A stretch of DNA of 64,000 bases. It comes from Verrucomicrobiia bacterium DG1235. Lineage in GTDB: Bacteria > Verrucomicrobiota > Verrucomicrobiia > Opitutales > Opitutaceae. Positions 24,283-30,495 of this stretch are shown here, piece by piece. The notes beneath the pieces were generated by a model that saw only the letters and a list, made by a program, of their open reading frames with translations, had not been told where the DNA came from and did no database searches. Where the stretch lies: assembly GCA_000155695.1 (NCBI GenBank), contig DS990592.1, forward strand, positions 2,713,973 through 2,777,972, written 5' to 3'. The translations under genes were made by a program, and so were the position numbers. How positions within the stretch are numbered: position 1 is the stretch's first letter; every line of letters starts with the position of its first letter.

Positions 24283-24810
24283 CGCCCGTCTCGCAAAATT
24301 CACTCCTCACTCCTCACCACTCCAAACTCAAAGTGGTACCCAGGGTGGGATTGATTCGCTACGCTCAGGGCTTCGCCCCAAACCTGCGGTTTGCCCATCT
24401 CCGCTTCGCTCCGTCGAACCCTAGTGAGTTCAAGTCCGGAACGCCCGTCTCGCAAAATTCACTCCTCACTCCTCACCACTCCAAACTCAAAGTGGTACCC
24501 AGGGTGGGATTGATTCGCTACGCTCAGGGCTTCGCCCCAAACCTGCGGTTTGCCCATCTCCGCTTCGCTCCGTCGAACCCTAGTGGGTTCAAGTCCGGAA
24601 AGCCCGTCTCGCAAAATTCACTCCTCACTCCTCACCACTCCAAACTCAAAGTGGTACCCAGGGAGGGATTGATTCGCTACGCTCAGGGCTTCGCCCCAAA
24701 CCTGCGGTTTGCCCATCTCCGCTTCGCTCCGTCGAACCCTAGTGGGTTCAAGTCCGGAAAGCCCGTCTCGCAAAATTCACTCCTCACTCCTCACCACTCC
24801 AAACTCAAAG
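24283..24810. repeat. Three tandem 159-bp repeats fused to copies of the tRNA-Leu 3' end
   Basis: Three full units begin at 24334, 24493 and 24652, and the tRNA-Leu 3' end at 24811 is in register with them. A partial unit precedes from about 24283. Each unit opens with the last ~18-20 bases of the tRNA on the opposite strand (TGGTACCCAGGG) and then carries small hairpins: GGGC/GCCC, AAACC/GGTTT and GAACCC/GGGTTC. Units are nearly identical, with a few substitutions. Length is a multiple of 3, so open frames read through by chance. The structure looks like repeated duplication at the tRNA end. Confidence 0.9.
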
Positions 24811-24895
24811 TGGTACCCAGGGAGGGACTCGAACCCTCACTTCCGAAGAAAGCGGATTTTGAATCCGCCGCGTCTACCAATTCCGCCACCTGGGC
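24811..24895 (-). tRNA. tRNA-Leu (anticodon CAA)
   Basis: 85-nt class II tRNA on the minus strand with a long variable arm. The 5' end is GCCCAGGTGGCGGAA; the anticodon stem GCGGA/TCCGC holds loop TTCAAAA with anticodon CAA; the T arm is GGGTTCGAGTCCC. The 3' CCA is encoded (24811-24813). It reads UUG codons. Its 3' end borders the 159-bp repeats. Confidence 0.95.
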
Positions 24896-27219: not shown

Positions 27220-28818
27220 CTACCAGGTCATCAAACCTCCGGCAAAAGTGAAGCCAGCTCCCACCGAGCAAAAGATGATCTTGTCTCCCTCTTCGAAAAT
27301 CTCCTCCTCCGCCGCCCAGCCAAGCGCCATCGAAACCGACGCGGCCGAAGTGTTTCCGTACTTTCCGATCGTCACCACAAACTTGTCGTAAGGAATGCCT
27401 ACCCGCTTGCTGACGGCTCGCAGGATACGAGCATTCGCCTGATGCGGCACCACCCAGGCCACATCCTCCGGCTTCAAGCCGTGACGCTCCAGAGCGCTCT
27501 CGATAATATTGGAAAAAGCGAGTACTGCCCGCTTGAATACAACTCCACCATCCATCTTCAGATAGAAGGAATCAAGGTCCTCGCCCGGTGCGGGCATCGG
27601 ATGCAGCGCTCCTCCACCGACGCGCGAAATCGCATCCGTAAAGCGGGCGTCGCCACTCAGCTCAAGCCGGTGCAAGCGATGCCCACCTTCCTGAGGCGTC
27701 AAAATCGCCGCCCCAGCGCCATCACCAAAAAGAAATGCCGTTTCGTGATCCCTCGGATTCGTGATGCGCGAGAGAATCTCAGCCGTAACAACCAAAATGT
27801 TTTTCGCCGTGCCGCCATAGATCAAGCTACGACCGACTTCGAGCGCATAGAGCCATCCGGAACAAGCAGCGTTCAGATCAAACGCTAACGCATGCTCAAT
27901 CCCCAACTCCTTGGCCAAAATACTCGCCGCTCCCGGTACAGGCTGATCAGGCAGAAGCGTGGCTACAACCACCGCATCTATGTCAGAAACATCTAATCCC
28001 GCCATCTCAAGCGCGTTCCGCGTTGCCGTGCTCGCAAGACTCGTGGCGGACTCCCCCTCGGAAATAATGTATCGCTGCTGGATACCTGTAACCTTGACGA
28101 TTTCCTCCTCCGTCTTCCCGGGAAACTGCTTCAGGATTTCCGCATTCGAAACCATGTTTTTCGGCACCGCGTAGCCGATTCCCGCCACACAGGCAGTCTG
28201 GTTCGATCCCGAGCCTGCCGGTTGAGAATCCGCAACCGCAGGCGTCGCCGGTGCGACAGTCGTTGAGTAAGCGTCTAAGTCATCGCCCGTTACGCGACCA
28301 CCAGGTCCCGTCCCCACAATGTCCGAAATCGCATCCGGATCCAAGCCACGCTCAAGCGCCAGCTTTTTGGCGCGAGGCGTCCAACGCGCTCCAGCGACCT
28401 TAGCGACAGGAGCTACCGCGGGCATTGCAGCAGGACTGGCAGTGACCTCCTGCATGACTGCGACAGGCGACTCCTCTACTTTCGTTTCAGCAGACGCAGA
28501 TTCTGGATCCGCGTCAGCATCCACCTTCAAATGGCCGACCGCAGCATCCACCTTCAAATGGCCGACCGCAGTATCCTCAGTCTCGATACGAAGAAAAGGC
28601 ATTCCTACTTCGATGATATCTCCAGCGCGGCAAAAGATCCGCTTGATGATTCCGTCGCACGGCGCCTCGAAATCGAAGACCGACTTGTCGCTCTCCAACT
28701 CCGCCAGCTTCTCACCCTTGGCGATGCTTTTCCCTGACTCCACAAAGAGGTCGATCAGGGTCATTTCATTGACAGTTGCTCCCATTGAGGGAATGGGCAC
28801 GTCGATTTGAAAACTCAT
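27220..28818 (-). CDS. Lipoyl domain / E3-binding domain / beta-ketoacyl synthase III fusion
   Basis: 532 residues in three parts. Residues 1-80 are a lipoyl domain like those of 2-oxo acid dehydrogenase E2 subunits, with the lipoylation site in 'ELESDKSVFDFEAP' (Lys45). Residues 145-184 are a peripheral-subunit (E3)-binding domain ('RWTPRAKKLALERGLD', 'GTGPGGRVTGDDL'). Residues 208-532 are a FabH-type condensing enzyme with the complete triad: Cys319 in 'DLNAACSGW', His459 in 'VVPHQANARI' and Asn489 in 'GKYGNTSAAS'. The E2 acyltransferase domain is missing; the synthase sits in its place. FabH condenses acyl-CoA with malonyl-ACP; here the acyl donor may be acyl-lipoyllysine (inference). No E1 or E3 gene is adjacent. 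Confidence 0.9.
   Translation of the reverse strand: MSFQIDVPIPSMGATVNEMTLIDLFVESGKSIAKGEKLAELESDKSVFDFEAPCDGIIKRIFCRAGDIIEVGMPFLRIETEDTAVGHLKVDAAVGHLKVDADADPESASAETKVEESPVAVMQEVTASPAAMPAVAPVAKVAGARWTPRAKKLALERGLDPDAISDIVGTGPGGRVTGDDLDAYSTTVAPATPAVADSQPAGSGSNQTACVAGIGYAVPKNMVSNAEILKQFPGKTEEEIVKVTGIQQRYIISEGESATSLASTATRNALEMAGLDVSDIDAVVVATLLPDQPVPGAASILAKELGIEHALAFDLNAACSGWLYALEVGRSLIYGGTAKNILVVTAEILSRITNPRDHETAFLFGDGAGAAILTPQEGGHRLHRLELSGDARFTDAISRVGGGALHPMPAPGEDLDSFYLKMDGGVVFKRAVLAFSNIIESALERHGLKPEDVAWVVPHQANARILRAVSKRVGIPYDKFVVTIGKYGNTSAASVSMALGWAAEEEIFEEGDKIIFCSVGAGFTFAGGLMTW
28516..28569. repeat. Perfect 27-bp tandem duplication inside the fusion gene linker
   Basis: Two identical 27-bp units (28516-28542 and 28543-28569) encode 'AVGHLKVDA' twice at residues 84-101, directly after the lipoyl domain. 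Identity at the DNA level suggests a recent duplication that lengthens the flexible linker by nine residues. Confidence 0.93.
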
Positions 28819-28863: not shown

Positions 28864-30495
28864 TTAAAGGCTCTCGTCCCGCTTAATTGCTGCTTCCACA
28901 AACGCGCGGAATAGCGGGTGAGCCTTGTTGGGCTTGGAAAGAAATTCTGGATGGGATTGTACCGCGAGGAACCAAGGGTGTTCCTTTAGCTCCACCATTT
29001 CGACAAGGTTTCGCTTGGGATTCACTCCGCTCACGACCAGTCCCGCAGCCTCGAGCTGCTCCACATAATCGTTGTTAACCTCGTAACGATGACGATGACG
29101 TTCGCGCACGTTCTCCTCGCCATAAGCCTCATAGGCGTGCGTCCCTTTTTTCACCTTACACTCATACGAGCCGAGACGCATCGTCCCACCCTTGTCGACG
29201 ACTTGCTTCTGCTCCTCCATCAAGGCGATCACTGGATTCTCCGTCATTTCGTTGAACTCCAGACTGTTCGCATCCGCCAAGCCGAGCACATTGCGAGCGT
29301 ACTCGATCACAGCGATCTGCAAACCGAGACAAAGACCGAAATACGGAATGTTGTTTTCGCGAGCATAGCGGACCGCCGCGATTTTCCCTTCCGTCCCTCG
29401 ATCTCCAAATCCACCGGGAACCAATATTCCATGCAAACTCTTGAGCGCCTCAAGACCTTCCGCAGTCTCGAGCGACTCCGCGTCGATACGCTTGATCGTA
29501 ACCGCGCAATCATTGGCAATCCCCGCGTGCGTAATCGACTCGTAGACCGACTTGTACGCGTCCTGCAGCTCGATGTATTTTCCGACAACACCGATCGTGA
29601 CACGCTTGGAAGGAGACTTCAGACGACGGACAATATCAGTCCAAATGCTATTCTTAGCCGGAGGAGCGTCTAGCTTGAGCATGTCCACCACTAGATCATC
29701 AAGCTTCTCGCGACGAAGCATCACCGGCAGCTCGTAAATGGAGTCATCCACGTCGATCTCTTCAATGACCGCCTTCACAGGCACGTTGCAGAAAAGACTC
29801 ATCTTCTCGCGCAGCTCCATATCGATCGGGTGCTCCGTGCGACATACCAAGATGTTCGGCTGGATACCGATCTCGCGCATTTTCGCCACGCTCTGTTGAG
29901 TCGGCTTAGTCTTGAGCTCACCCGCCGCAGCGAGAAAAGGAACCAAAGTACAATGGATGAAAATCACGTTATCGCGCCCCGCTTCGAGAGCGAACTGACG
30001 CATCGCTTCGAGAAATGGCAAACCTTCGATATCACCCGTCGTACCGCCGATTTCCGTGATCAAAATGTCTACGTCCTCGCTCGCTGCCGCTATGCGCTGC
30101 TTGATCTCGTTGGTCACGTGAGGAATCACCTGCACCGTCTTGCCGAGGTACTCTCCACGACGCTCCTTCTGGATAACGGACTCGTAGATTTGCCCCGACG
30201 TCAAGTTGTTGAACTGGCTCAGCTTGCCGGACGTGAAACGCTCGTAGTGGCCGAGGTCGAGATCGGTCTCCGCCCCGTCGTCAAGAACGTACACCTCTCC
30301 GTGTTGAAACGGATTCATCGTGCCCGGATCAACATTGAGGTAAGGATCGAACTTCTGGATCCGCACCGTGCAGCCTCGCTCCTCGAGCAACGCGCCCAAA
30401 GATGCGGCGGTCAAACCCTTGCCTAAAGACGATACGACACCGCCCGTCACGAAAATATACTTCTTTGCCTTACTGTTTTCCACTTTGGCTGCCAT
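28864..30495 (-). CDS. pyrG: CTP synthase
   Basis: Converts UTP to CTP using ATP and glutamine-derived ammonia. 543 residues. The synthetase domain shows '[20 protein letters not shown]' and '[20 protein letters not shown]'. The glutamine amidotransferase domain has the nucleophile in 'FGLCLGLQ' and the His/Glu pair in 'QSHPEFLS'. The ATG ends at 30495. It lies 45 bases upstream of the fusion gene on the same strand, so co-transcription is possible. Confidence 0.97.

Follow-up and report, generated by a model that had tools for sequence, protein, structure and literature searches.

We have found that a gene in the window, the whole 64,000-nucleotide stretch of DNA analysed here, joins E2-type lipoyl and peripheral subunit-binding domains to a condensing enzyme of the KAS III type. 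The protein probably serves a 2-oxo acid dehydrogenase complex in the manner of an E2, with a condensing enzyme that initiates fatty acids in place of the CoA acyltransferase core. In the scheme that we propose, an orphan E1 encoded elsewhere in the same genome (E1fus) would decarboxylate a 2-oxo acid, most likely a branched-chain one, and would reductively acylate the lipoyl group on Lys45. The flexible lipoyl arm would bring this acyl group to Cys319 in KAS III, and the KAS III domain would then condense it with malonyl-ACP, using His459 and Asn489, to give the first beta-ketoacyl-ACP, while a shared E3 docked on the peripheral subunit-binding domain (PSBD) would reoxidise the dihydrolipoyl group. 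The architecture of the protein, its conservation, the co-occurrence with E1fus and the loss of FabH-type CoA contacts were all observed. The usual teaching is that fatty acid synthesis begins with acyl-CoA. If the scheme is true, the lipoyl arm on the starting enzyme, the orphan E1 that matches it and the loss of the CoA site would together amount to a second entry into fatty acid synthesis, and 2-oxo acid dehydrogenase complexes would gain a product other than acyl-CoA. Nothing on such a fusion or on direct lipoyl-to-KAS transfer was found in the literature that we searched, which consisted of open-licence PMC papers only.

Architecture and spread of the fusion

The gene lies 45 bases from pyrG on the same strand, and the features of this region are as follows.

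28864..30495, minus strand: pyrG (CTP synthase), the recurrent upstream neighbour, used as a synteny marker and given no mechanistic role
27220..28818, minus strand: fusion gene for lipoyl, peripheral subunit-binding and KAS III domains, 532 aa
28585..28803, minus strand: lipoyl domain, residues 6-78 (Pfam PF00364, Biotin_lipoyl, E 5e-14)
28684..28686, minus strand: codon of Lys45, predicted lipoylation site in an SDKS motif, invariant in 15 aligned fusions
28381..28584, minus strand: Ala/Pro-rich linker, residues 79-146
28276..28380, minus strand: peripheral subunit (E3/E1)-binding domain, residues 147-181 (Pfam PF02817, E3_binding, E 6.5e-9, above cut-off)
28198..28275, minus strand: second linker, residues 182-207 (from domain search and alignment)
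27223..28197, minus strand: KAS III domain, residues 208-532 (Pfam and NCBIfam)
27862..27864, minus strand: codon of catalytic Cys319, equivalent to C112 of E. coli FabH (alignments)
27442..27444, minus strand: codon of catalytic His459, equivalent to E. coli H244 (alignments)
27352..27354, minus strand: codon of catalytic Asn489, equivalent to E. coli N274 (alignments)

The reading frame begins with ATG and is a single one with no internal stops. According to the original prediction, the protein has a lipoyl domain with Lys45, an E3-binding domain and a complete KAS III domain with Cys319, His459 and Asn489, and this architecture was confirmed by Pfam, NCBIfam and alignment. The N-terminal lipoyl domain, the Ala/Pro-rich linker and the PSBD follow each other in the same order as in the E2 proteins of PDH, BCKDH and OGDH. 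Unlike these, the fusion has no 2-oxoacid_dh catalytic domain (none among Pfam matches up to E 1) and carries KAS III instead, which agrees with the earlier view that the condensing enzyme stands where an E2 acyltransferase would be. Within the KAS III part, Pfam recognised ACP_syn_III at residues 313-388 (1.1e-25) and ACP_syn_III_C at residues 443-532 (5.2e-30), and the NCBIfam beta-ketoacyl-ACP synthase 3 profile covered residues 208-532 and exceeded its cut-off (7e-96). The fusion scored 321 with NF006829 (cut-off 249) and 286.5 bits with TIGR00747 fabH (cut-off 292.1 bits). The AlphaFold model of the whole protein, with a mean pLDDT of 64.7 from 15 similar rows, was too weak for use.

Lys45, Cys319, His459 and Asn489 are unvarying across the 15 aligned fusions, an alignment that omits L009, whose frame contains a stop. 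The lipoyl-lysine motif S(D/E)KS was present at all 83 loci compared (52 fused, 16 split and 15 without KAS III), and the gene for lipoyl synthase, lipA, in all eight genomes tested, including that of the window. We infer that Lys45 is lipoylated and that the partner proteins are bound. Biotin domains carry an MKM motif, and a biotinyl rather than a lipoyl domain was ruled out by the SDKS motif in an E2-type domain. The lipoate-binding proteins (LbpA) of sulfur oxidation are lipoyl carriers outside the classic E2s (PMC6067878), and the fusion resembles them in this use of its lipoyl carrier. Unlike the fusion, LbpA serves Hdr-like sulfur oxidation, and the available text on LbpA makes no mention of a PSBD or of KAS III (PMC6067878). 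The Ala/Pro-rich linker of the window protein also contains a 27-bp in-frame repeat (window 28515-28576), giving about nine additional residues compared with the aligned relatives; the repeat is missing from the other 14 aligned fusions.

The possibility that the gene is an assembly join, raised together with the original prediction, was refuted, and so was that of a chance fusion. A short-pattern scan of an 84,980-species collection, which detects close relatives only, gave 17 relatives, all titled Opitutia or Verrucomicrobia, for example Pelagicoccus, Ereboglobus and a Puniceicoccaceae bacterium. In the organism's own family of water and soil bacteria, KAS III was found at E <= 1e-100 in 85 of 120 genomes, and 49 of these carry a full-length, stop-free fusion in a single frame. 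The presence of the fusion in related genomes thus holds for 49 of the 120 but is not universal, since split gene pairs also occur. Twenty loci were read from the 36 KAS III-positive genomes without a counted full-length fusion, and at 16 of them we found two consecutive same-strand ORFs, the first encoding lipoyl domain and PSBD (the mini-E2) and the second KAS III. Three of the remaining four have both parts in one ORF, although in one of these, G435, KAS III is broken between two frames, and the last lies at a contig end and could not be judged. The mini-E2s end 44-46 residues past the PSBD start at the 16 split loci and in the 15 genomes without KAS III. A frameshift or read-through as the source of the split form is disfavoured, because the mini-E2 ends are nearly identical in all 16, and we read them as two genes; in five of the 16 (L127, L129, L130, L131 and L134) the two ORFs lie in the same frame, separated by one stop, and read-through could occur there.

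The order pyrG, mini-E2/KAS III, rsmE recurs in the sufficiently long loci, and a kdsA-like gene lies between pyrG and the mini-E2 in several of the loci read (all gene names by eye). Among the matches listed for 387 genomes of the phylum, none from outside the family starts before query residue 124, and it is the condensing domain that is aligned; the match in G070 starts at that residue. G289 carries two copies of the fusion; the second (L203:6405-7982) has diverged, sharing 62% identity with the window protein, and lies next to a gene for a TetR-like regulator (by eye).

The condensing domain and the CoA site

By sequence, the condensing part of the fusion is a full-length KAS III like FabH (beta-ketoacyl-ACP synthase III; PDB 4ryb, 1hn9), with the Cys-His-Asn triad and the basic residues of the ACP side. 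Unlike FabH, it has a lipoyl arm and a PSBD in front of it and has lost T28, W32, R36 and R151. When CoA-bound E. coli FabH was superposed on the Yersinia enzyme, Arg36 and two Asn were described as bonding the pantetheine arm and Thr28 as bonding the adenine, with Trp32 and Arg151 stacked on either side of the latter (PMC4606726). Arg36 and Asn247 are named as substrate-positioning in a review (PMC10054515). Our alignment comprised 66 KAS III rows of the fused or split form, 65 of them usable after L009 was set aside as mostly gaps, and 40 FabHs, of which 31 came from the own family (30 genomes and the fusion-carrying L009) and nine from other families of the phylum. At each of the four sites the FabH residue occurs in none of the 65 KAS III rows and in all 40 FabHs. 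Position 32 is occupied by Glu in 61 rows, Asp in three and Ala in one, position 36 by Leu, Val, Ile or Thr, and position 151 by His in 56 of the 65. Arg36 may also touch the ACP arm. In the window protein, two of the replaced positions are the following.

28102..28104, minus strand: codon of Glu239, at the position of the CoA-adenine-stacking Trp32 of FabH (alignment; role of Trp32 from PMC4606726)
27745..27747, minus strand: codon of His358, at the position of Arg151 of FabH (alignment; role of Arg151 from PMC4606726)

The residues C112, H244, N274, N247 and R249 are retained in all 65 rows, and so is the basic character of the ACP side (Lys or Arg at 214, basic residues at 256 and 257). F87 is replaced by Val in 64 rows and by Ile in one, and N210 is uninformative, since 39 of the 40 FabHs have also lost it. 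The second FabH that was sought in this genome is present as an ordinary FabH, to which the window KAS III is 38% identical. In all ten comparisons between this and another genome, KAS III was more conserved than FabH (for example, 68% versus 59%), a sign of strong selection on KAS III.

A CoA-free transfer best accounts for the loss of the CoA contacts and the retention of the lipoyl lysine taken together. We lean towards the view that the lipoyl arm hands its acyl group straight to a KAS III whose CoA site is gone; carbon derived from amino acids would then enter fatty acid synthesis without ever being acyl-CoA. Proof of direct transfer would make this a 2-oxo acid dehydrogenase complex of a new kind, with the formation of a C-C bond as its terminal reaction. 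Could the KAS III instead still be CoA-dependent, with the lipoyl domain and PSBD docking it on 2-oxo acid dehydrogenase complexes where it would use the acyl-CoA released nearby? N247 and a FabH-like sequence are retained. Moreover, OleA enzymes take acyl-CoA, and the OleA of this genome also lacks T28, W32, R36 and R151 in our alignment, so the loss of these residues is not proof of CoA-independence. We nevertheless consider such docking quite unlikely. All four CoA contacts are gone together, and the SDKS lysine is kept at 52 of 52 fused loci, which argues that the arm is more than a tether. A PF02817 search, which would miss an E2 without a PSBD, found three PSBD proteins in the window's genome, namely the fusion and the E2s of PDH and OGDH, leaving no obvious source of branched acyl-CoA for KAS III; in the 14 fused genomes surveyed there are at most two PSBD proteins besides the fusion.

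The KAS III could also be a transacylase, which would move the acyl group from the lipoyl arm to ACP, another thiol or an alcohol, or it could start a special lipid and not bulk fatty acids. Another strong FabH-like match was found in 35 of 35 genomes tested, which suggests that bulk initiation is independent of this KAS III, and no fatty acid genes were seen around the second fused copy of G289 (L203 locus). However, all three condensation residues are present in 65 of 65 KAS III rows, and the gene recurs between pyrG and rsmE with no special-metabolite cluster at the loci read. We find a role of this kind improbable and prefer the direct start of fatty acids by condensation.

E1fus and its co-occurrence with the lipoyl protein

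The direct-delivery scheme calls for an E1, and a search for one elsewhere in the genome revealed E1fus, a 699-aa orphan E1 in which alpha and beta are fused (C6:1989771-1991867), with E1_dh, Transket_pyr and Transketolase_C in a single chain. E1fus is encoded away from the fusion gene, and no E2- or E3-like ORFs were present in the 19 kb read around E1fus. An E3 gene was likewise looked for, and an E3-like gene lies alongside the OGDH genes (by eye). The PF00676 matches of this genome belong to PDH, OGDH, a separate alpha/beta pair, E1fus and a fifth, weak match on C5. The best PDB relatives of E1fus are a 2-oxo acid dehydrogenase beta chain, which we take to be that of Thermus, and, for the alpha half, a BCKDH alpha chain; both BCKDH and PDH E1s are among its PDB relatives, and no NCBIfam equivalog passes. 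The E1 alpha/beta pair near C6:3402668 was set aside as a partner on account of its position within a surface-polysaccharide-like cluster; it is E1fus that co-varies with the mini-E2. This second orphan pair (C6:3402668-3404706; L030 8669-10707) is surrounded by genes for an aldo/keto reductase, a methyltransferase and a sugar transferase, the cluster being assigned by eye, and no E2 was seen there.

E1fus was found at E < 1e-100 (our own threshold) in 110 of the 120 family genomes. Among 44 genomes surveyed, all 38 with E1fus and none of the six without it have a PSBD protein that is either a fusion or a mini-E2; the 38 comprise 14 fused, nine split and 15 without KAS III. In a high-quality set of 96 family genomes (completeness of 90% or more, contamination of 5% or less), KAS III occurs in 70, each of which has E1fus, and the six genomes without E1fus are also without KAS III. 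The three KAS III genomes without E1fus (G406, G455 and G466) are 68-87% complete. Since the surveyed genomes are related, these counts represent non-independent events. In the phylum, E1fus-like matches (E <= 1e-120) were found in 38 of 387 genomes, 35 of them from the own family; the three from another family are weaker, with 37-39% identity and internal stops. By co-occurrence only, E1fus is the dedicated E1 of the fusion or mini-E2.

In 15 of the genomes tested, E1fus and a stand-alone mini-E2 are found without this KAS III, and the pair must have another acceptor there. All 15 mini-E2s retain the lipoyl lysine and the PSBD. Thirteen of them have just one strong FabH-like and one weaker OleA-like match, and G169 and G181 have three and four matches in the same search. 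The acceptor of the acyl group would be either the ordinary FabH or another E2 core. Is it possible that the mini-E2 is simply the lipoyl subunit of E1fus, handing the acyl group to the E2 core of PDH or OGDH to form acyl-CoA, and that KAS III was attached later and is inessential? The 15 genomes are what one would expect in that case. On the other hand, E1fus accompanies KAS III in every one of the 70 high-quality genomes that have the latter. In the tree of 40 E1fus proteins, rooted at the midpoint only, fused genomes stand on both sides of the root and genomes without KAS III in at least two places inside. Loss of KAS III after fission suits this tree better and is a simpler story than a late gain, with the midpoint root not fixed. 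We regard this route through the PDH or OGDH core, with KAS III as a late addition, as an unlikely explanation.

The original prediction that an E1 loads the lipoyl group and KAS III takes the acyl group directly has thus gained an orphan E1, a co-occurrence in 44 of 44 genomes and the loss of CoA contacts alongside kept catalytic and ACP-side residues. A strict coupling of E1 and lipoyl arm to KAS III is opposed by the 15 genomes, which keep E1fus and the mini-E2 without it, and by a relative described below that makes branched acids without the system. The split relatives and those without KAS III are natural variants which make the idea of direct transfer directly testable.

Branched-chain fatty acids and other 2-oxo acid routes

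In the Bkd and FabH route, E1 decarboxylates a 2-oxo acid and the acyl group primes fatty acid synthesis (PMC10026030). Our scheme is similar in the proposed decarboxylation by E1 and in the acyl group as a fatty acid primer. It differs in that Bkd makes an acyl-CoA intermediate, whereas here no such E2 was found in the PSBD search and the condensing enzyme itself carries the lipoyl arm. Iso or anteiso acids are among the major fatty acids in all eight strains with values in a table of ten strains, most of them Opitutales (PMC12193912). Branched fatty acids are also major in Coraliomargarita, which belongs to another family (PMC10288369), and they are therefore not a mark of the E1fus/fusion system. 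Lacunisphaera limnophila contains 48.6% iso-C15:0 (PMC5303756), and G274, which is taken as this species, lacks E1fus, mini-E2 and KAS III alike. The idea that branched fatty acids require the system was thus rejected for the family as a whole.

G274 and five other E1fus-negative genomes tested each have an E1 match in an open frame of 1048-1131 aa. At L269-L271 the long frame was read through as a single chain of E1 alpha, E1 beta, lipoyl domain and acyltransferase, with Pfam applied to L269 only, and such a protein offers an explanation at hand for the branched acids of L. limnophila. The protein, a 2-oxo acid dehydrogenase in one chain of about 1042-1076 aa, is encoded at L269:6740-9865 in G274 and also at L270 and L271; it has no PF02817 match in L269, and an enoyl-CoA hydratase-like gene (by eye) adjoins it in L270 and L271. 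E1 frames of more than 1000 aa are also present in the split genomes or those without KAS III G010, G283, G060, G075, G122 and G169, and in none of eight fused genomes tested. The fused genome G310 has an OGDH-sized E1 besides E1fus. Proteins with POR_N (the ferredoxin type) number four in the window's genome and none in G310, and at least one was found in 11 of 15 genomes tested; those of the window's genome might make branched acyl-CoA.

Branched starters are favoured by the BCKDH-type relatives of E1fus (found along with those of PDH), by the major iso and anteiso acids of the eight strains and by the absence of a long E1-E2 protein from the eight fused genomes tested. A branched-chain 2-oxo acid is the most likely substrate of E1fus; the acyl group would then be a branched one, and the complex probably starts branched-chain fatty acids. 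Perhaps a modular arm of this type could help to supply fatty acid or polyketide synthesis with starter units of choice.

Elsewhere in the window, positions 24284-24827 hold 3.4 copies of a 159-bp unit with 99% matches, and this repeat overlaps the end of a tRNA-Leu(caa) gene (24811-24895, minus strand).
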